Origin: a virus | IMG/VR virus record: IMGVR_UViG_3300032296_002723 | Location: 1-24,498 of that record | DNA length: 24,498 nucleotides | Reading direction: 5' to 3' (one strand) | Shown: in pieces, positions 2,996 to 21,411 of the stretch | How the letters are laid out: the number at the start of each line of letters is the position of its first letter | How positions within the stretch are numbered: position 1 is the stretch's first letter | Position numbers and translations under genes: made by a program | The notes under the pieces: generated by a model | Seen by the model: only the letters and a program-made list of their open reading frames with translations | Told to the model about the DNA's origin: nothing | Database searches by the model: none

Positions 2996-3484
2996 ATGAG
3001 AAACTTATTTAATTTTAATTCTTTTGTTGGATTTTTGAACGAATCGGAGGAACAATCTAAATCTCTAGATAAGATATTGAAGTCTAGAGGTGGAAAAGGA
3101 GAAGATGAAAAAATCCCAGGATATCATTTTGATAATATCAAGAAGATTTTTGGAAACTCTGAATATGTTACCAGATTTAAAATAGCCCAAGCTCTAAAGG
3201 CAATGGACATGGATTTTTTCCCCACTAATTCTAAATTTCCAAATCCAGAAGTTAATAGAAATTTATCACAGAAAGACGGGATGATTTTGACTTTCTATAT
3301 AGGTGATCCAGAACAGAATAAGAAAATGGATCAAATTGGAGAAGACATTCTTTCTATAGTAAAACCGGTGGTTGATTTAATGGATAAAGACCCAGAAGGA
3401 GTTTACGGATTTTCTACCCTTATGTCCTTCCAAAGACCTGAAATTAAGAAGGCTAAAGCTCTAGCTTCTAATCTAAAGAAATAG
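2996..3484 (+). CDS. Small protein with capsid-targeting-like N-terminus; function unknown
   Basis: A 162-aa protein of unrecognised family. The frame is open further upstream (an ATG at 2912), but that region overlaps tube copy B; the start at 2996, 10 nt after the tube stop, is preferred because it gives an N-terminus (MRNLFNFNSFVGFLNES) matching those of the genes at 15163, 15500 and 15966. That N-terminus resembles the T4 capsid targeting sequence MKTYQEFIAE, and its FLNE fits the (L/I)xE prohead protease site. The rest is charged and globular with no known motif that I can see. It ends in TAG, rare in this window, and is followed by a strong terminator. A head-packaged internal protein is inferred, not shown. 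Confidence 0.75.
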   Translation: MRNLFNFNSFVGFLNESEEQSKSLDKILKSRGGKGEDEKIPGYHFDNIKKIFGNSEYVTRFKIAQALKAMDMDFFPTNSKFPNPEVNRNLSQKDGMILTFYIGDPEQNKKMDQIGEDILSIVKPVVDLMDKDPEGVYGFSTLMSFQRPEIKKAKALASNLKK

Positions 3485-12106: not shown

Positions 12107-14962
12107 ATGGATTTAATAACCAAACTACAAAATCTTAAAGAAACTACTCAATCCAGAGAAGTTAGAGATTTGTGTGAAACTTACATTTCTGAACTAAAGA
12201 GTGGAAGCTCTAACATTTCAGAGTCTCAAGTAAACCAAATCGTTGAATCTTCTAATAGTGAATCTACTATTTCTCCTCTAGAAGCTATGAGAAATGAGGA
12301 ACTAGAAAGATCCAAGTCCAGAGCTAGAATGATAGCAGAATCTTGGGGAGGAATTAACACCTTCAAGACCTCTAAAAATGCTGGTTCTTATGTGGACGGA
12401 TCTAAAGAAGAAACCCCTATAGCATCTGAAGTTCAGTCTAAGCTAAATGAAGCTCTAGAAGAAATGTCTAAATTTGACAAATCTGCTGCTTCTTTTGTTA
12501 AGACAAACAGGGTGGAAAATCTAGGAATCATGGAGTCTATCCTTTCTCTTACTAAAAAAGGAATCTATGATCACTCGGACTTTAAAATCCTGTGTGAGAA
12601 ATATGCTAATATTCTCAAGAACAAAAATGTTCCCGAATATCTAGTAATTGAAGGATTCATTAACGACTTTTCCAACTTCGGATGGGATAGCAGCGTTAAG
12701 AATACCGTTAACTCTATTATAGAGTCTTACAATGACCTAAGAACAGAAATAGAAGTTTCTAAAGCTCTTTACCAGATTTCTAACTCCGGAAGTGCTAGCT
12801 TCTACTCTCCAGTTAAAGAATCTATCTCTAAGTGGTTAGTTTCTGAGTCTAAATCTATTCCTGCTCTTTCTAGAGATCTTGGAGTTTGGTCTTTCAATCC
12901 TGTAGTTAGAAATTTGATTAACACCCTTTCCGTTTTAGAGTCAAACAATTCTAAATTGAATATTCCTACTGTTAATGGAAATTCAGAGATCAGAAAAATC
13001 TATTCTCCTGTTTTAGTAGAAGGTGGCAGAACTATCTTTGCAGTTGGAAAAACTCTTTTTGAAGGAGATGAGTACGGTGTTAGAAAACTTAGTAACAGAG
13101 ATATCTCTACTATGAATAAAGATTTCCTAGGATTACTAGAGTCTTTCTATTCTGAAGGAGTTAAAGTTGACGACAAAGGAATTTCAGTTTATGTAGGTGA
13201 TACTAAAATCTCTATCATAGAAGAAAAAGAAGAAACTAAGATTTATCTAAACAAAGATCAAGTTAATTTTAGCGACTATAATCAACTTGCTAAAGTAATT
13301 TCTCTTAGAATCTCTAAAGGTCTTGGAGTTAACGAGAGCAAAGTTATTTACGACGTAATTAAACTTTATGAAAACTTCAACAGTATAGTTGAGCTAGACT
13401 TTGCTAAAACTATCACTTCTAAAGTTTACGAAGGAGCTTCTGTTAGCTTAATCAAGTGGAACGGAAAAATGTATCTTCAGAGAGTTAACGAAGCAATGAG
13501 AGAAAATTCTCTTTTTGAAGTTAATGGATCACAAGCTGCTAACATAGTAAAAGATTTCTTGAAATATGACATTTCAGAAGGATTGACTGAATTCCTAGAC
13601 GGAGAGAAGAAGATCAAGTCTATTATGTTAAATGATAGAAAGAAAGTTATTGATAACATAGCTATAGTAGAATCAGAAATGAAGAAGATTGAGGCTTTGG
13701 TTGCTACCAACCCTCTTTATAAAGGATCTAGACAACTTTCTGAAGCTTATTCTCTTTTAGAGAAAGAACTTCAGACTTTGAAGTCTAAATGGTCTACAAT
13801 CAATGCAGAGTTGGATTCTATAGAGAATAATCCTATAGAAATCTCAGGAGATCTAATGGAGGATTCTAAATTTGCAGTAGGAGACTACGTGAAAGTTAAA
13901 GAAAACGGAAATACCGGTAAGATCATTTCGGTAGATACTACTTCTGGATCTTATACAGTTCTTCTGGACAGCGGAAAAACTGGAGACTTTGGAGTTGAAG
14001 ATATTGTAGATCTTGAAGACGCTTTCCAAAAATCTTCAGACGAGAATTCAGAAGAGGGTGAAGGTGTTAAAGAATCTACCCAGCCTTTGGCTAAAGCTCC
14101 ATCTGCAGGAAAAAACCCACAGGGAAAAACTCCTGCTCAAGTTTTAAAATCTAGCATTTCAATTGCACCTAGCTCAAAAGATCAAGAGAAGGAAGGAAAG
14201 AAAGACGTAGAAAATTTGAAGGATGCTAACCTAGAAGAAGCTCCTAAAAGCAAGAACAAATCTACAGAATATGAGGTAAACGACGAGATTGGATACAATC
14301 TAGAAGAATCTCAAGATTCTCTGGTTGTTGCTCCAGGTGGAAAATCTAATGCAGATATGTCAACCGAATTTGAAAGATCTGGTCTTAAAGCTGCTAATTT
14401 AGCTAAAGCTCCTGGTAAAGAAGAAGGAGATGCTGATTATGAAATTCACTACCCAGAGCCAAAGGGATCTAAAAAGGCTGAGATAATGGGAAATTCTAAT
14501 CTAGCTTCTGCTCCTGGAATGGGAAAATCTAAAATGGATGAGTCTGATTTATCTAAGCTAAGCTCAGATATGTCTACTGCACCAGGTTCACCAGTAGGAG
14601 ATTCTGGATATAAAGTTAAGATCAATATCCCTAAAGCTTCTAGTCCAGAAATCGATAACTTGGACACGATGAACTTAGCAAATGCTCCAGAAGAAGGTTC
14701 TAAAGTTCCTACCAAAGACACAACAAATCCTAATTTTGCTACTTCTCCAGGTAACGTAGAAGGAGATGCAGGATATGAAGTTGAGTATATCGAAACTGAC
14801 GGATCTAATAAAGCAGAAATTGATAACTTAGATACAATGAATTTAGCAGATGCTCCAGCAGCTGGAACTGAAGCTGAAACAGGTCTAGAGATTAATTCTG
14901 AAATGGGTTACAACTTGACTGAAGGTTTCGAGAGACCTAGTCCCGAACTAAAAAAAAATTAA
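12107..14962 (+). CDS. Large protein with KOW/SH3-like domain and C-terminal AP-motif repeats; function unknown
   Basis: A 951-aa protein. Residues 1-585 are mostly helical with a Ser/Asn/Glu-rich surface, including a coiled-coil-like stretch near 525-580 (RKKVIDNIAIVESEMKKIEA). Residues about 588-638 (KFAVGDYVKVKENGNTGKI, then a beta-rich ISVDTTSGSYTVLLDSG) look like a KOW/SH3-type barrel. From about 660 on, a linker-like region repeats a short motif, NLAxAPG and variants, about every 20-45 residues. The frame ends TAA just after a run of nine A's, while the -1 frame continues the same repeat style to 15141; a frameshifted product of about 1011 aa is likely or intended. It precedes genes with capsid-targeting-like N-termini, so a head core or virion role is conceivable but not shown. 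Confidence 0.82.
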   Translation: MDLITKLQNLKETTQSREVRDLCETYISELKSGSSNISESQVNQIVESSNSESTISPLEAMRNEELERSKSRARMIAESWGGINTFKTSKNAGSYVDGSKEETPIASEVQSKLNEALEEMSKFDKSAASFVKTNRVENLGIMESILSLTKKGIYDHSDFKILCEKYANILKNKNVPEYLVIEGFINDFSNFGWDSSVKNTVNSIIESYNDLRTEIEVSKALYQISNSGSASFYSPVKESISKWLVSESKSIPALSRDLGVWSFNPVVRNLINTLSVLESNNSKLNIPTVNGNSEIRKIYSPVLVEGGRTIFAVGKTLFEGDEYGVRKLSNRDISTMNKDFLGLLESFYSEGVKVDDKGISVYVGDTKISIIEEKEETKIYLNKDQVNFSDYNQLAKVISLRISKGLGVNESKVIYDVIKLYENFNSIVELDFAKTITSKVYEGASVSLIKWNGKMYLQRVNEAMRENSLFEVNGSQAANIVKDFLKYDISEGLTEFLDGEKKIKSIMLNDRKKVIDNIAIVESEMKKIEALVATNPLYKGSRQLSEAYSLLEKELQTLKSKWSTINAELDSIENNPIEISGDLMEDSKFAVGDYVKVKENGNTGKIISVDTTSGSYTVLLDSGKTGDFGVEDIVDLEDAFQKSSDENSEEGEGVKESTQPLAKAPSAGKNPQGKTPAQVLKSSISIAPSSKDQEKEGKKDVENLKDANLEEAPKSKNKSTEYEVNDEIGYNLEESQDSLVVAPGGKSNADMSTEFERSGLKAANLAKAPGKEEGDADYEIHYPEPKGSKKAEIMGNSNLASAPGMGKSKMDESDLSKLSSDMSTAPGSPVGDSGYKVKINIPKASSPEIDNLDTMNLANAPEEGSKVPTKDTTNPNFATSPGNVEGDAGYEVEYIETDGSNKAEIDNLDTMNLADAPAAGTEAETGLEINSEMGYNLTEGFERPSPELKKN

Positions 14963-15080
14963 AATCGGCTCTTAGCAAGGTTTGGGCTTTTGCTCCCGAG
15001 AACGAGGAGACAGAAGGTAAAAAACCAAAACCCGAAGTAGAAAGTCTTGAAGGGAAAATGAGTGTAGCTCCAGACGGAAA
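14085..15080 (+). repeat. Degenerate protein-level repeat with an (L/M)xxAPG core
   Basis: Twelve or so copies of an AP-centred motif: LAKAPSAG, ISIAPSS, LEEAPKS, LVVAPGG, LAKAPGK, LASAPGM, MSTAPGS, LANAPEE, FATSPGN, LADAPAA, then after the frameshift WAFAPEN and MSVAPDG. Some copies sit in a longer unit, EGDAGYEVEYxExxGSxKAE and IDNLDTMNLA(N/D)AP, repeated twice near residues 845-855 and 900-915. The DNA is not identical between copies. Likely flexible binding or cleavage linkers. Confidence 0.7.
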
Positions 15081-15141
15081 AACTAAAAAGTCTGAAGGTA
15101 CACTCATTTCTCGTGAAGAAGAAGGAGAAGAAAAAGAATAA
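14950..15141 (+). CDS. -1 frame extension of the 12107 gene (probable frameshift product)
   Basis: The -1 frame is open from 14941 to TAA 15139-15141 and has no ATG near its start. It reads KKKLKSALSKVWAFAPENEE, later SLEGKMSVAPDGKTKKSEG, ending in a Glu-rich tail, so it carries two further copies of the AP motif of the upstream protein. The junction is an A9 run (14950-14958) containing A AAA AAA in the zero frame, the classical slippery heptamer, four bases before the zero-frame TAA. Six nt later, TCGG 14965-14968 can pair with CCGA 14996-14999, and AGCAA 14974-14978 with TTGCT 14990-14994, a possible stimulator. A homopolymer sequencing error would explain the same data. Confidence 0.7.
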   Translation, partial: KKKLKSALSKVWAFAPENEETEGKKPKPEVESLEGKMSVAPDGKTKKSEGTLISREEEGEEKE

Positions 15142-15162: not shown

Positions 15163-15498
15163 ATGAAAAACTTAATGACTTTTGGAGAACTCAACGAGTC
15201 TCAAATATTTGAAGCTTTCGGAAAAGGAGCAGGTAAAGGATTAAATCCCCTCTTTAAGAAAAACTTCATGGATATGGCTACTAAAGCCTATGGATACAAG
15301 GAAAGTGGAGAAACCCTTTCTAGAGAAATTGACGGAGTTAAATCTACCATCACGGTAAAAGATTCTGGAATTAAATCTAGTTTAATTGGAGATTATCCCC
15401 TAACCAAAACCAAATCGGTTGACTATGTAAAGTTCTTGAATAAAATTGGGGACGAAGCGAGAAAACAAGCTAAGAAAATAGCTAAAGAAAAAAAGTAA
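15163..15498 (+). CDS. Small protein with capsid-targeting-like N-terminus; function unknown
   Basis: A 111-aa basic protein of unknown family. It begins MKNLMTFGELNESQIF, matching the N-terminal pattern M(K/R)xxxx(F/Y)...(L/I)xE shared with the genes at 2996, 15500 and 15966 and with the T4 capsid targeting sequence; ELNE fits the prohead protease site. The body has a Gly/Lys-rich stretch (GKGAGKGLNPLFKKNF) and a C-terminal Lys/Ala/Glu helix (EARKQAKKIAKEKK). Its small size, basic charge and N-terminus recall T4 internal proteins packaged with DNA. Only 1 nt separates its stop from the TTG of the next gene. Confidence 0.78.
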   Translation: MKNLMTFGELNESQIFEAFGKGAGKGLNPLFKKNFMDMATKAYGYKESGETLSREIDGVKSTITVKDSGIKSSLIGDYPLTKTKSVDYVKFLNKIGDEARKQAKKIAKEKK

Positions 15499-15499
15499 T

Positions 15500-15961
15500 T
15501 TGAAAATCCTGGATAACTATACAGAATGGCTAAAAGAATCTAGAGAATTAACTAGAAGTTCTGGTTATGAGATTACTTTAAACCCATGGATAGTAAGACC
15601 ACTTGGCATGAATTCTACGATATGCCCAGGAGGAGGAGAAATGAGATCTTATACCGTTTATTTGAACGGGGAAGAAATCATAGGACGTAACAAATTTGGT
15701 ATGGTGGGATCTAAAGAAGGAGGTATTTTACAGGCAATTTTGCCTAATAATAATCCTGATATAGCTTTTGTTGAGAATATCAACATCCCTGAAGGATTGA
15801 GGGGAAAAGGAATTGGAGCTAAAATATATCAAGCTTTAGCCAACGAAATAAAAAGAACTATCGTCAGCTCGTCTGATAGCAGAGCAGCAGGTCCTGTTGC
15901 ATCCCAAACATCTTCATCTGAAGCTTTTTGGGCAAAACATAAAGAATTTAAACCACAATAA
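15500..15961 (+). CDS. GNAT-like acetyltransferase with capsid-targeting-like N-terminus
   Basis: A 153-aa protein starting at TTG 15500. The TTG is chosen because it restores MKILDNYTEWLKES, which matches the N-termini of its neighbours, and because the next ATG is 36 codons on. The C-terminal half has a GNAT acetyl-CoA motif: FVENINIPEGL followed by R101-G-K-G104-I-G106 (R-x-x-G-x-G) and the helix AKIYQALANEI, then a second block ending EAFWAKHKEF, the usual beta5-alpha4 end of the fold. N-terminal to that, the sheet has a plausible SYTVYLNGEEIIGRNKF stretch. An acetyltransferase of unknown target is predicted. If the N-terminus is a real head-targeting tag, the enzyme would be packaged and injected, by analogy with T4 Alt. 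The tag reading is inference. Confidence 0.72.
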   Translation: MKILDNYTEWLKESRELTRSSGYEITLNPWIVRPLGMNSTICPGGGEMRSYTVYLNGEEIIGRNKFGMVGSKEGGILQAILPNNNPDIAFVENINIPEGLRGKGIGAKIYQALANEIKRTIVSSSDSRAAGPVASQTSSSEAFWAKHKEFKPQ

Positions 15962-15965
15962 AAAA

Positions 15966-16613
15966 ATGAAAAATATTCAAACCTTTGGGGACTTTATTTT
16001 AGAGAAGAATCTCTTTTTGGGAGAAACTATATTTATAGATTCCCAGCCAGATAACTATTTTGAAGGCGTTCTATTAGAAGCCAAAAAATTTATCGATCAA
16101 AAAGAACTTGCCGACGAGGTTAAAAAATCTCTAGAGGAAGGAGAAACTGTTTATATTAAGGTTTTGGGAAATCCTCGTAGACCTGTTAAAACGGTAACAC
16201 ATAAACTTGCAAAGATGCTTGTTGAACTGATCAATTCTGTTGCATATGGCGAGTTTAGAAGAAGATGGTCTAATCTAAGTGAGGAACAATTTGATGAGGT
16301 AATTGCTACAACTTTAAAGGATGTTCTACAGGATTGGCATAAGAGTGTAGATAAACCAAACTTAACTGACGGTCAAATCTATGGAAATTTGAGAACATTG
16401 ATTAAAACTAGATTACTTGGAGCCAATAATCAATTAATGAGAAAGGTAACTAAAGAGCCTTCTGGATCTCAGCAAGTGGATTACGATGCAATAGATAGAA
16501 CTATTAATAAAATCTTAACTGGAACTACAGATAGACCTTATAGACCAGCAGTAAAAGCACCAGAGCCTGGTGAAAAGAGCTGGTTTGATTACGATCCTAA
16601 CGTTCAGGATTAA
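15966..16613 (+). CDS. Protein with capsid-targeting-like N-terminus; function unknown
   Basis: A 215-aa protein. The frame is open upstream to an ATG at 15897, but that overlaps the GNAT gene; ATG 15966, 4 nt after that gene's stop, gives MKNIQTFGDFILEKN, again the shared pattern with ILE as the (L/I)xE site. The body is mostly helical with a basic middle (YGEFRRRWSNLSEEQFDEV) and a C-terminus with Pro and aromatic residues (YRPAVKAPEPGEKSWFDYD). No motif is recognised. It ends the 15163-16613 group and a strong terminator follows. Confidence 0.78.
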   Translation: MKNIQTFGDFILEKNLFLGETIFIDSQPDNYFEGVLLEAKKFIDQKELADEVKKSLEEGETVYIKVLGNPRRPVKTVTHKLAKMLVELINSVAYGEFRRRWSNLSEEQFDEVIATTLKDVLQDWHKSVDKPNLTDGQIYGNLRTLIKTRLLGANNQLMRKVTKEPSGSQQVDYDAIDRTINKILTGTTDRPYRPAVKAPEPGEKSWFDYDPNVQD

Positions 16614-16696: not shown

Positions 16697-17053
16697 ATGG
16701 CAGATTACGTTAAAAACTCGGACCTCATGAGGGCAATTTTAGAGTCTAAAGAGAAGGGATCTCTAACCCCTGAGACAGTTAGTATGTTTTATTTAATGGT
16801 TCAGGGAATATCCAAAAAAATGGCCTATAAAGATCCGGACGATAAGGATGATTGCATGGCATTTGCAATGGAGGACTTATGTAAATACTGGAACAGATTT
16901 GACCCTGCAAAATCAAATAATCCATTTGCATATTATACACAAATTGCTAAGAATGGATTTGCAAAGGGCTGGAAGAAAATTCATCCCCCTAAGGCACCTA
17001 AAACCATTCCTTTTTCCCATATTACGGGGGAAGATAACTCTTACAACATTTAA
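16697..17053 (+). CDS. Late sigma factor, T4 gp55 type
   Basis: Phage late-gene sigma factor that lets host RNA polymerase recognise late promoters. At 118 aa it is shorter than T4 gp55 (185 aa). The diagnostic core is DDCMAFAMEDLCKYWNRFDP followed by AKS73NNPFAYYTQIAKNG, very close to the gp55 block ...DNFDPEKSNNPFAYFTQI; YVKNSDLMRAILESKEKG at the start matches the gp55 N-terminus. I see no clear C-terminal sliding-clamp binding peptide, and the C-terminus is short. The gene follows a terminator with no obvious TATATAAA box before it. It is followed after 5 nt by the gp4-like gene. Assignment is firm. Confidence 0.88.
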   Translation: MADYVKNSDLMRAILESKEKGSLTPETVSMFYLMVQGISKKMAYKDPDDKDDCMAFAMEDLCKYWNRFDPAKSNNPFAYYTQIAKNGFAKGWKKIHPPKAPKTIPFSHITGEDNSYNI

Positions 17054-17058
17054 TTTGT

Positions 17059-17541
17059 ATGTCGATCAAAAAAGTAAAGCCCAATGGAAATTATAGGTCG
17101 GGACTTTACGAGCCGATCAATCCCGACAAATATATTGGGGATCCACACAATATAATTTGTAGATCTTCTTGGGAATTTAGATTCTGCAAATATTGTGACA
17201 CGAACGAGAGAATTCTAAAATGGTCGTCAGAACCACTTCAAATTCCTTATTATAATCCCCTTGATAAAAAAGAACACATCTACAATGTAGATTTCTATAT
17301 GAAAGTTCTAAAAGATGACGGAGAGGAATCTGAATGGATAGTAGAGATAAAACCCGAGTCCCAGTACAAAAAGCCAGAATTAACTCAGCCCCACACTCTC
17401 CCGAAGTTAAAAGCATACAACCATAGAATGCAACTTTGGATCACAAATCAATCCAAATTTAAAGCAGCTAGAGAATGGGCTCTCAAAAGAAATTATAATT
17501 TTGGAGTAGTGGATGAAAATTTCCTTTTTAAAAGTCCTTAA
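17059..17541 (+). CDS. Head completion nuclease-like protein, T4 gp4 type
   Basis: T4 gp4 (gp50) head completion protein, 160 aa, needed to finish DNA-filled heads before tail joining. N-terminal GNYRSGLYEPINPDKYIGDP matches the start of T4 gp4 (Y-R-x-x-x-P-x-N-P-x-K-Y-x-G-D-P). A restriction-endonuclease-like core is visible: Glu39 in SSWEFRFCKYCDTN, Asp78 in VDFYMK, Glu96 and Lys98 in VEIKP, the PD-(D/E)XK spacing. It lies between the late sigma gene and the 17545 gene, close to the portals. Whether the nuclease centre is active cannot be told from sequence. Confidence 0.88.
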   Translation: MSIKKVKPNGNYRSGLYEPINPDKYIGDPHNIICRSSWEFRFCKYCDTNERILKWSSEPLQIPYYNPLDKKEHIYNVDFYMKVLKDDGEESEWIVEIKPESQYKKPELTQPHTLPKLKAYNHRMQLWITNQSKFKAAREWALKRNYNFGVVDENFLFKSP

Positions 17542-17544
17542 AAA

Positions 17545-18153
17545 ATGAACATCAAAGAACAAATCGTACAATATAGAGATGAGGCTCCTTCTATTTCTTC
17601 TTTAGCCACAAAGACAGACATGCATTTTCTGGGAAAATATGGAGCTAGAGGAGAAGGGTCCTCCTACAAGTATAATGGTACTCTATTCCCAGGTAACCTT
17701 TATTTTTTCTCATACCAAACAGATTCTAAACTTTCTGATAAAGTCCAATTTATTAACAGAAACCCCTTAATATTTTACATCTCTGCTGACAGGGTAGGTC
17801 AAGAAACTATAGTTAAAGGGATAGATTTAACTATTACTCCCCCGGAGCAAAGAGTAGAAATCATTCAAAGAATAGCTGAGAAGTTCCAAGGAGAGATTGG
17901 AGAAGGGGAAAAGAGCACACAGAAAGGGGGTTCCCCAGTTCAAATTAGATTGGATTCAAAGGATCTTTCCGGACTACTGTCAGGAACTGGATATAATTTT
18001 TCGGTTACTGGTTTTAAGATGAAGTTTATGAGTGATATCAAATGGATTGATTATTCAGATTGGTCCAAGATTCCTTTCTTGAAATACTCTCTTGTGCAGG
18101 GGATATCTATTAACGAGATATATAGTAACTACAGGTCGAAATTAAAAGGATAA
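17545..18153 (+). CDS. Probable virion protein of a T4-like family; function unknown
   Basis: A 202-aa protein. It has PGNLYFFSYQTDSK, NRNPLIFYI and, at the end, FKMKFMSDIKWIDYSDWSKI then a SLVQGISINEIYSNYRSK close. This order (PG-x-x-Y-x-F-x-Y, PL-I, DWS-I, EIY--Y) recalls ~200-aa uncharacterised proteins common in T4-like marine phages, as far as I remember, but I cannot check it. It lies directly behind the gp4-like gene (3 nt) where T4 has gp53, but it does not show the gp53 pattern. A structural or head-tail junction role is inferred from place only. Confidence 0.78.
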   Translation: MNIKEQIVQYRDEAPSISSLATKTDMHFLGKYGARGEGSSYKYNGTLFPGNLYFFSYQTDSKLSDKVQFINRNPLIFYISADRVGQETIVKGIDLTITPPEQRVEIIQRIAEKFQGEIGEGEKSTQKGGSPVQIRLDSKDLSGLLSGTGYNFSVTGFKMKFMSDIKWIDYSDWSKIPFLKYSLVQGISINEIYSNYRSKLKG

Positions 18154-18184: not shown

Positions 18185-18787
18185 ATGGCAGGTTTTATAG
18201 AAAATCCACAAGGCAGTCCAATCTTTCAAAGGATTAGAGATTCTATTAAGAATCTAAGTAATTTTGGGCTGAATTATGGGGACATGGTGGTTAAAAACTC
18301 CCAAGCCATAGGACAGACCGAAGCAGCTTTTCTAAAGAAGGGTTTAATTGAGGACGAAACGATGCTTTACGCTCTTGCTAGACAAGATACCACTTCCAAG
18401 CAGTACGTTTCTTATTTTGATAAAGACTACAAAGGAAAGAGAGACTATCTCAGAAAGTTTTCACTTAACCCCGAGATTGAATTTATTCTGGATGTAGTAA
18501 ACGACGAGTCAATTTCCTACGACAGCCATAATTTTTTTGCATACCCAGCTTTTTTAAATCTAACGGGGCTAAAGGAAAAAGTTGTTGATAAGATCAACGA
18601 GAACTACAAGAAGCTCTACGATATGTTTGGATTTACTGACAGCATTAGTGCTTGGCAGTACTTCAGACAATTTTTGATAGATGGATATGTTGCCTTTGAA
18701 ATTATTTACGATGACAAGGGAAAAAACATTATTGGGTTTAAAGAAATAGACGCTATGACCTTAATGCCATCTGTGGAAAAACAGTAG
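18185..18787 (+). CDS. Portal protein paralogue 1, N-terminal part (gp20 type), ends at in-frame TAG
   Basis: N-terminal 200 residues of a T4 gp20-type portal, the dodecameric ring through which DNA enters and leaves the head. It matches the second portal from the first residue: MAGFIE, NSQAIGQTE, YFDKDYKGKRDYLRKFSLNP, QFLIDGYVAFEIIYDDKGK, then LMPSVEK. At 18785-18787 a TAG replaces the residue aligned with Pro in TEKAPDGS of the other copy, and the same frame then continues with DGTYLNVWWQYFKD into the next listed part. So this is one gene of 539 codons cut by an amber codon, not two genes. It is either readthrough, a recent mutation or an error. Confidence 0.88.
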   Translation: MAGFIENPQGSPIFQRIRDSIKNLSNFGLNYGDMVVKNSQAIGQTEAAFLKKGLIEDETMLYALARQDTTSKQYVSYFDKDYKGKRDYLRKFSLNPEIEFILDVVNDESISYDSHNFFAYPAFLNLTGLKEKVVDKINENYKKLYDMFGFTDSISAWQYFRQFLIDGYVAFEIIYDDKGKNIIGFKEIDAMTLMPSVEKQ

Positions 18788-18844
18788 GACGGGACATATT
18801 TAAATGTTTGGTGGCAGTACTTTAAGGATCCTAGAAGAAAAAGA

Positions 18845-19801
18845 ATGCTCTATGATTCCCAGATAATTTATATCTCATATGCTAAAGGAAATACTGTTTC
18901 TCGAGTTAGTTACGTTGAGAGATTAATTAGACCATATAACATTTTAAGAATTATAGAATATACCAGAGTAATCTGGTCTGTAATGAATGCTTCTTTCAGA
19001 ATGAAGATGACTGTTCCCATTGGAACTAGATCTCAACAGAAGGGAATGCAGACTCTGGGAGAATTAATGAGTATCTACAAGGAAGATGTTAGTTTGAATG
19101 ACCAGAGCGGAGAACTTTTCGTTAACGGGGCACCAAAGATTCAATTCTTTAAAAATTACTTGATGCCTTCTGGTGTTAATGGAACTCCTACAATTGAACC
19201 ACTAAATAACGTTGGTCCGAATTTGAACGATCCTGCTCCATTGGCTTATTTCTTCGATAAATTGATCAACGAGTCGAAAGTTCCAAACTCCAGATTTACT
19301 GGTCCAGACGGAGGAACAATGGGGAAATATGCAAACGCTGCAGAGGGACTAGATAAGCAAGAAATTAGATTTGCTAAATTCATCGACAGATTAAGAACTT
19401 CTTTTCAGGATATCTTAATTAAACCACTTTGGATCCAGATGTGTAAGGACTTCCCAGAATTGGAGAAAGACTACATGTTCAAGAGTCAATTGGGACTGGA
19501 TTATATTTCAGACAATCCATTCAAAAGAAACCAAGAGATGGAGATCATTCTTAAAAAGAAGGAATCTGTCGATAAACTAATTGCTTTGACTGATGATAGC
19601 GGGGGAGGATTCTTTTCAGTTCCTTATTTGATTGAAAATTATTTGGGACTTACTGAGGACGACATTAAGGCCAATGCAGAGGCTAGGAAAAAAGCAGAAG
19701 AAGAGAAGAAAGAAGGCGGAAAAGAGGGGGAAGCACCAGCAACTGGATCAGCTCCAGCAGCTCCGGCGGCTCCATCAGCTCCGGCCGCACCAGCAACTTA
19801 A
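18845..19801 (+). CDS. Portal protein paralogue 1, C-terminal part (same frame as 18185)
   Basis: Continuation of the amber-cut portal: the frame is open from the codon after TAG (18788) and the first ATG is at 18845. It carries YISYAKGNTVSRVSYVERLI, RVIWSVMNASFRMKM, the KVPNSRFTGPDGG block, then EIRFAKFIDRLRTSFQDILI and the DFPELEKDYMFKSQLGLDY end, all aligned with the second portal. The C-terminal tail is Ala/Pro-rich (APATGSAPAAPAAPSAPAAP), unlike the Lys/Glu tail of the other copy. If no readthrough occurs, ATG 18845 is a possible but unproven restart; the fragment alone would lack half the portal fold. Confidence 0.86.
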   Translation: MLYDSQIIYISYAKGNTVSRVSYVERLIRPYNILRIIEYTRVIWSVMNASFRMKMTVPIGTRSQQKGMQTLGELMSIYKEDVSLNDQSGELFVNGAPKIQFFKNYLMPSGVNGTPTIEPLNNVGPNLNDPAPLAYFFDKLINESKVPNSRFTGPDGGTMGKYANAAEGLDKQEIRFAKFIDRLRTSFQDILIKPLWIQMCKDFPELEKDYMFKSQLGLDYISDNPFKRNQEMEIILKKKESVDKLIALTDDSGGGFFSVPYLIENYLGLTEDDIKANAEARKKAEEEKKEGGKEGEAPATGSAPAAPAAPSAPAAPAT

Positions 19802-19812
19802 AAAGAAATTAA

Positions 19813-21411
19813 ATGGCAGGGTTTATAGAAGGAGCACCACAGAATAGATTTTTAACTCAGGTTTACAAAAACTTGAGTAGAATAGGAAAATTTGGGATGC
19901 AGTACGAAGACATGGTCATTCGTAACTCCCAGGCTATTGGTCAAACCGAGTCTCAGATGTTTTCTGAGGAAGGTAATGGATTTACGAACGATAGTGCATT
20001 CTACTGGACACTAGGCTATCAAGACACTAGAATAAGGAAGTATATTGCCTATTTTGATAAAGATTATCTTGGCAAGAGAGACTTTCTAAGAAAATTTGCT
20101 CTAAATGGAGAGATTGATTTCATTTTAGAGACTGTTTCGGATGAAGGAATTAACTATGATGATAAGAACTTCTTCTGTTATCCTGCTCTAAACAATCTAG
20201 ATTTTAAAGATAAGATTCTAGATAAAGTACAAGAGAACTTCAAAACCATCTACATGCTTTATGCTTTCCAACAAAACAATTTAGCATGGCAATTATTCAA
20301 ACAGTTCTTAATAGATGGATTTTTAGCTTTTGAAATTGTTTACTCTACGGACGGTAAAAAAATTGTTGGTTTTAAAGAACTAGATCCAACTTCACTTCAG
20401 CCCCATACAGAGAAAGCTCCGGATGGATCTTTCGAACAAATTTGGATCCAGTACCCAAAAGATTCTCAGCTTTCTAGAAAATTGAAGTCTGAACAGATTA
20501 TCTATATCTCTTATGCTAAAGGTAATTCTATTTCTAGAGTTAGTTATGTTGAGAGATTAATTAGATCTTACAATATTTTAAGAGTTATGGAGAACACGAG
20601 AGTTATTTGGAACGTGATGAACGCTTCATATCGACTTAAGTTCGTAATCCCAATCGGAACCCAATCCCAACAAAAGGGAATGCAAACTCTAGGACAGTTA
20701 ATGTCTTCTTATAAGGAAGAGATAACAATGAACGACACCTCAGGTGAACTTCTAGTAAACGGAACCCCTAAAATTCAGTTCTATAAAAACTATCTTTTCC
20801 CGGAAAAAGATGGTCAGTCTCCTCAGATTGATGTTTTAAATGCAAACGGTCCAGACTTTAATGTAATGGACAATGTCATCTACTTCTATAACAAATTGAA
20901 GATGGATTCTAAGATTCCTTATGCTAGATTTGCCGGAAGAGGAGCAACCCCAGCTAACTATCAAATTTCCATCGACCAGCTGGAAAGAGATGAGATTAGG
21001 TTCGAAAAGTTCTTAACTAGACTTAGATCTATATTCCAAGAAATTATCATTAAGCCTCTATACATTCAGATGTGTTTAGACTTCCCTGAGCTTTCTAAAG
21101 ACAGAAGTTTCAAAACCAATTTAGGTCTAGATTACTATAATGACAATCAGTTTTCAAAACTTTTAGATCTTGCCCACCTAACTAAGGCATCTGATTTTGT
21201 AACTGCTCTAGGTGATATGAAAATGAAGGTAGGGGAGGAAGAAAAACCCTACTTTGATAAGAATTTCCTGATTAAAAGATTCCTTCCAATTTCCAGAGAC
21301 GAGTTCAAAAAGAACGAAAAGTATAAGGAAAAAGAAGCTAAAGAAGCAGAAAAAGCTAAGAAGGAAAAACCGGAAGGCAAGGAAGGTGAGGGAGAATCCT
21401 TTAGTTTATAA
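19813..21411 (+). CDS. Portal protein paralogue 2, complete (T4 gp20 type)
   Basis: Full-length portal, 532 aa (T4 gp20 is 524). Family blocks in order: N-terminal MAGFIEGAPQNRF and NSQAIGQTESQ; AYFDKDYLGKRDFLRKFAL; KQFLIDGFLAFEIVYSTDGK; QIIYISYAKGN and RVSYVERLIRSYNILRVMEN; SSYKEEITMNDTSGELLVNG; SKIPYARFAGRG; EIRFEKFLTRLRSIFQEIII; then IQMCLDFPEL and a Lys/Glu-rich tail. It starts 11 nt after the first copy ends. Being uninterrupted it is the best candidate for the working portal. The start context ATGGCAGG is shared with both tubes and the other portal. Confidence 0.92.
   Translation: MAGFIEGAPQNRFLTQVYKNLSRIGKFGMQYEDMVIRNSQAIGQTESQMFSEEGNGFTNDSAFYWTLGYQDTRIRKYIAYFDKDYLGKRDFLRKFALNGEIDFILETVSDEGINYDDKNFFCYPALNNLDFKDKILDKVQENFKTIYMLYAFQQNNLAWQLFKQFLIDGFLAFEIVYSTDGKKIVGFKELDPTSLQPHTEKAPDGSFEQIWIQYPKDSQLSRKLKSEQIIYISYAKGNSISRVSYVERLIRSYNILRVMENTRVIWNVMNASYRLKFVIPIGTQSQQKGMQTLGQLMSSYKEEITMNDTSGELLVNGTPKIQFYKNYLFPEKDGQSPQIDVLNANGPDFNVMDNVIYFYNKLKMDSKIPYARFAGRGATPANYQISIDQLERDEIRFEKFLTRLRSIFQEIIIKPLYIQMCLDFPELSKDRSFKTNLGLDYYNDNQFSKLLDLAHLTKASDFVTALGDMKMKVGEEEKPYFDKNFLIKRFLPISRDEFKKNEKYKEKEAKEAEKAKKEKPEGKEGEGESFSL

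Follow-up and report, generated by a model that had tools for sequence, protein, structure and literature searches.

We describe a late phage gene that ends at a run of nine adenines (A9), beyond which a second reading frame continues into a conserved C-terminal segment. The gene lies in the window, by which we mean the whole 24,498-nucleotide stretch analysed here (IMG/VR virus record IMGVR_UViG_3300032296_002723, positions 1 to 24,498), and its surroundings are listed in Table 1. In the 0 frame the 3' end of this parent gene reads ...CTA AAA AAA AAT TAA. The -1 frame is open from 14941, following a TAG at 14938-14940, and encodes KLKSALSKVWAFAPENEE...KMSVAPDGK...EEGEEKE up to the TAA at 15139-15141. 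The run at 14950-14958 is the only one of at least eight A in the 24.5-kb window. The initial annotation had placed the end of the 0 frame at 14960-14962 and the open -1 frame at 14941-15141, and these frames and coordinates are correct on the sequence, as is its in-phase A AAA AAA in the overlap (14950-14956); the two further copies of the AP motif that it noted in the -1 frame are FAPE and VAPD, and the predicted products of 951 and about 1011 aa come to 951 and 950 + 61 = 1011 aa. Standard decoding of the gene would yield the 951-aa protein, while an additional A at the run in the mRNA, or a ribosome stepping back one base there, would add an acidic tail of 61 aa; a -1 slip at the run and an added mRNA A specify the same 1011-aa product.

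Table 1. Coordinates of the parent gene, the candidate slippage site and neighbouring features in the window
Feature	Position	Strand	Basis or remark
Parent gene, 0 frame, 951 aa	12107..14962	+	ORF translation
Putative A9 slippage site, including in-phase heptamer A_AAA_AAA (14950-14956)	14950..14958	+	Sequence; A9/A10 in 132/132 tail-bearing loci and 39/39 non-redundant lineages
0-frame stop TAA, end of short product	14960..14962	+	Sequence; TAA, TAG or TGA here in relatives
-1 frame C-terminal tail, 61 codons after the putative slip, stop 15139-15141, acidic end	14956..15141	+	
Stem of the initial annotation, unsupported as a stimulator	14965..14999	+	
ORF with N-terminus like the T4 capsid targeting sequence (MKNIQTFGDFILE)	15966..16613	+	Context only
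Late-transcription sigma factor homologue	16697..17053	+	phrog_234
Head-closure protein, gp4-like	17059..17541	+	phrog_218
DNA end protector, gp2-like	17545..18153	+	phrog_429
Portal protein gp20	19813..21411	+	phrog_213

The parent protein consists of a conserved domain (about residues 1-650) and a disordered C-terminus (about 650-951) with AP repeats in varying number, and its length across the family is about 720-990 aa. Searches of PHROGs, Pfam and the PDB with the parent matched no named family. An AlphaFold2 model of residues 1-651 built on a 35-sequence alignment reached a mean pLDDT of 74 (42 for a 10-sequence model). Compared with BFVD, the 35-sequence model mainly resembles uncharacterised phage proteins, including one of Tenacibaculum phage PTm1, and its PDB matches suggest a KOW/Tudor-like barrel at about 585-640 and a coiled coil. 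As to a major capsid protein, the parent belongs to no PHROGs, Pfam or PDB family, and the model offers no fold for most of its length. Most likely the parent is a virion-assembly or head-associated protein, some copies of which would be tailed to bind another part; that it is head-associated or ejected is our guess from the model matches, its neighbours and the PG_binding_1 inserts described below.

The order parent, late sigma factor, gp4, gp2 and portal is conserved in relatives. Among named records, the portal protein best matches those of huge uncultured phages, Lak megaphages of Prevotella, Sphingomonas phage PAU, and Tenacibaculum and Chryseobacterium phages, and on the basis of these matches the hosts are probably Bacteroidota; the phages themselves are T4-like jumbo phages. 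The portal gene has a tandem paralogue in front of it (18185-19801), which carries one in-frame TAG at 18785-18787, a position at which nine relatives encode Lys, Met or Asn; this TAG would represent window-specific nonsense, suppression or an error. Besides the portal pair, the window holds two tandem tail-tube paralogues (1842-2393 and 2407-2985; phrog_32623). The T4 capsid targeting sequence is MKTYQEFIAE, and similar N-termini are found in the window at 2996-3484 (MRNLFNFNSFVGFLNE), 15163-15498 (MKNLMTFGELNE), 15500-15961 (MKILDNYTEWLKE) and 15966-16613 (MKNIQTFGDFILE), as well as at L005:9033 (MRIKSYLEFINE) and in the separate tail ORF of lineage L124. Scanning 176 ORFs for the motif gave five N-terminal matches against one internal match, so that the resemblance is weak.

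To avoid presupposing the result that was sought, the run was left out of the search for relatives: five tail sequences were compared by tblastn with all collected IMG/VR loci, with no condition set on the A run. Across the 132 tail-bearing loci, the longest adjoining A run was A9 in 119 and A10 in 13, and in none was it shorter; six parent loci that do not have a tail are all truncated by the contig end. Because the 132 loci include overlapping extracts from the same contig, their 62 distinct contexts are the better count. Dereplication at 85% nucleotide identity leaves 39 lineages, with A9 in 36 and A10 in three. Of the 39 lineages, 37 carry the tail in the -1 frame, and in most lineages the 0-frame stop lies at most one codon from the run. 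In the first six sequences only 4-19 nt separate the opening of the -1 frame from the run, and in the others the opening is also near it, so close that a shift is needed to reach the tail. Comparing the run in related phages, as the initial annotation had advised, thus returned A9 or A10 in every tail-bearing relative: no run of eight turned up, nor any relative with the tail and no run. Because the run is never shorter in 132 related sequences, it is a real signal of gene expression and no artefact of sequencing.

Close IMG/VR relatives are 69-75% identical (best segment) and many more 39-65%, part of these percentages being computed against a distant member and not against the window protein. 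Parents bearing the site are 39-80% identical and span both deep clades, and in the parent-domain tree lineages with an A9/A10 run and a tail lie on either side of the deepest split, which indicates that the site is ancestral to the group. We hold it near certain that the A9 marks a real, ancient and selected two-product site. Further afield, the homologue in LR756500.1 (27.7% identity) shares the N-terminal domain; it lacks the AP repeat, and its gene does not end in an A run. The homologues in Lak megaphages have the N-terminal domain in common as well, and the two Lak loci hold no run of at least eight A. The tail consensus matched none of 50,697 named phage records, and a scan of genome contigs for relatives found none. 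In several genomes (L089, G002, G003 and G005-G007) a second same-strand A9 is present about 2.2-2.6 kb 5' of the slippage site; that of L089 (about 4985) is located about 16 nt ahead of the parent start codon, perhaps as part of an A-rich initiation region.

Substitution patterns in the aligned sequences show purifying selection on the tail as a protein. In 15 close sequences, dN/dS of the tail is 0.095 in the -1 frame, 1.4 in the 0 frame and 3.3 in the +1 frame, and most variable columns are third codon positions (35, against 12 first and 6 second positions). The tail is 76-84% identical among close relatives, and over the 39 lineages FAP and the second AP are near-invariant as amino acids while their codons vary freely.

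Four variant lineages form one sub-clade of the parent tree. In L114 the run is A10 and the 0-frame stop is shifted one codon later, and in L106 the A9 is present and the 0 frame extends about 12 codons beyond it to a TAG. The tail of the L121 group (L121, L122 and L129) lies in the 0 frame as a constitutive fusion, where a slip would yield the short form. In the L124 group (L124-L126) the A9 is retained and the parent ends without the tail, which is instead encoded in a separate ORF that begins with an ATG of its own and gives the tail a new N-terminus (MSSNKILDFFSYINEENADVKKNLSR). That two lineages have rewired the tail, one as a constitutive fusion and the other as a separate ORF, argues that the tail itself is needed; where the A9 is retained and the tail needs no shift, the rewiring may be recent. 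The peptidoglycan-binding domain PG_binding_1 is inserted in the parent protein once in L121:5001-7628 (E 3.9e-13) and twice in L124:5001-7793 (E 2.1e-26). The parent gene of L123 has an in-frame TAG at L123:3707-3709 (codon 255), where aligned relatives mostly encode Trp.

Collectively, these comparisons strongly support programmed slippage at the A run that leads into the -1 frame; the level at which it occurs, RNA or ribosome, is a matter that we infer, as are the proportions of the two forms and their role. In the initial annotation the locus had the architecture of programmed -1 frameshifting, of which the in-phase heptamer and the -1 shift at the run hold and the 3' stem does not. Although a stem can be drawn at 14965-14999, its support is not above chance: one pair cannot form in 4 of 15 close relatives, covariation in the close clade shows no excess over shuffles, and the region folds no more stably than shuffled sequence (z = 0.35). 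RNAalifold predicted no pair in the 16 sequences of the other clade, and an Rfam search of the window gave no match. By eye, no SD-like element about 10-14 nt 5' of the run is common to the 39 upstream contexts; Bacteroidia rarely use SD (PMC8710568).

Slippage of RNA polymerase, mentioned in the initial annotation as an alternative, has emerged as somewhat better supported than a ribosomal shift. The balance of evidence leans towards the polymerase because neither a 3' structure nor an SD-like element proved to be conserved, the nine A are fixed, such runs are avoided elsewhere and the published slippage lengths agree. Judged from these features, transcriptional slippage on the A9 is probably the main mechanism, and the stuttering enzyme would probably be that of the host with the phage late sigma factor. 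The ninth A is invariant and lies outside the A_AAA_AAA heptamer, which in this phase needs only seven A. Changing it to G would keep Lys in the tail, where AAG accounts for 33 of 128 Lys codons (26%), and yet the Lys codons of the run and the ninth A underwent no AAA/AAG change over the 35 leaves of the tree, compared with 2-7 changes in each Lys column of the tail. In 428 other genes of these phages (321 kb), coding runs of at least nine A number three, against 29.7 +- 4.5 expected from synonymous shuffles, a ten-fold depletion; the corresponding values are 29 against 51.6 for A8 and 132 against 138 for A7. Nine A is the slippage length in Thermus thermophilus dnaX and in IS elements (PMC1088944), and bacterial RNA polymerase requires more than seven A to slip (PMC6260861). 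Features taken as criteria of slippage are also found here, namely the same ORF organisation with a conserved run in non-identical homologues (PMC1088944) and at least nine A within the overlap of two frames.

Several observations weigh on the other side. The shift is always -1 where one is needed, which is equally expected from -1 ribosomal frameshifting, and the avoidance of long A runs, being independent of phase, could also be explained by replication slippage. The ninth A is slightly constrained by its 0-frame codon (AAT/AAC/AAG), and the A9 is kept in L121, with its tail in the 0 frame, and in L124, with its tail in a separate ORF. Classical programmed -1 ribosomal frameshifting, in which tandem tRNA-Lys would slip on A_AAA_AAA (14950-14956) with no strong stimulator, is a rival that we consider less probable. 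A variant of it would have the ribosome slip on A_AAA_AAT just 5' of the stop, to give 1011 aa with Asn replacing one Lys. The in-phase A_AAA_AAA is present in all lineages, in most of them with the stop within one codon, and every shift that is required goes in the -1 direction; the heptamer is nevertheless weak evidence between polymerase and ribosome, since any A9 necessarily includes it. Many such heptamers shift above background in E. coli at a low rate and with no stimulator (PMC4066793). However, seven A would suffice for the ribosome in this phase and the A9 is invariant, no 3' structure or SD-like element is conserved, and in-phase A_AAA_AAA is not specially avoided in other genes, where A heptamers are depleted about equally in the three phases (0.58, 0.50 and 0.62).

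It is very improbable that the tail is a separate small protein made by internal initiation or by termination-reinitiation at the 0-frame stop. The own-ATG tail ORF of L124-L126 does suggest that the tail is able to work detached, but the -1 frame of canonical lineages becomes open immediately 5' of the run, inspection of their alignments revealed no common start codon upstream of FAP, and where the window clade has an internal ATG (GKMSVAP), much of the other clade encodes Leu or Phe; neither kind of initiation would account for the invariant A9. Homopolymers are generally error-prone, but a true run of 8 or 10 A in a single frame, or a decayed gene with a dead tail, is so improbable as to be negligible when the A9 and the frame relation are the same in nearly all 39 lineages from many metagenomes and the tail has a dN/dS of 0.095; sequencing error is ruled out by the 132 loci.

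Transcriptional slippage, the reading we prefer, has well-described bacterial counterparts on A9/T9 runs in Thermus thermophilus dnaX, Shigella mxiE and spa13, IS elements and Staphylococcus mapW. In these systems, as here, the run lies in a short ORF overlap that is conserved in homologues and runs of at least nine A are avoided elsewhere (PMC1088944; PMC5009743), and in the mxiE and IS cases the shifted product likewise gains a C-terminal extension. Our case differs in that the gene belongs to a phage and lies among virion-assembly genes, that the run is kept in 39 lineages and that slippage is read from sequence alone. The -1 frameshifting of E. coli dnaX and the IS3 family shares with it an in-phase X_XXY_YYZ heptamer of A, the -1 direction and the proximity of a stop; unlike those systems, the present site lacks both a conserved 3' stem and an SD-like stimulator, and its run exceeds what a heptamer needs.

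Parallels also exist among phages. The lambda-type G/GT tail assembly chaperones are, like the parent, products of a phage assembly gene of which part is extended C-terminally by frameshifting. In contrast to these, the parent, at 951 aa (about 720-990 in the family), is no small chaperone before a tape-measure gene, its neighbours being the late sigma factor, gp4, gp2 and portal genes. The T7 10A/10B, Listeria PSA cps and Lactobacillus A2 capsid proteins similarly come in two forms that differ by a C-terminal extension. However, the parent is not recognisably a capsid protein, and its tail is short, acidic and AP-containing rather than an Ig-like domain. Frameshifted phage extensions and bacterial slippage on A9 are thus known already, and what is new is the gene family; the literature searched contained no earlier description of a tailed-phage structural gene with slippage on a run of this kind.

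It is tempting to propose, as a tentative reading that could as easily fail as hold, that a whole group of giant phages relies on RNA-polymerase stutter on A9, an ancient switch free of stimulators, to fix the proportion of long to short copies of a virion-assembly protein. With 39 lineages, a fixed run length and no stimulator, the site offers an unusually clear case for distinguishing polymerase from ribosome on the basis of sequence. In these giant phages, a late protein has a conserved C-terminal segment that standard annotation would overlook. The rewired lineages make the function of the tail testable and, if the proposal is true, their rewiring would reveal what the tail is for.
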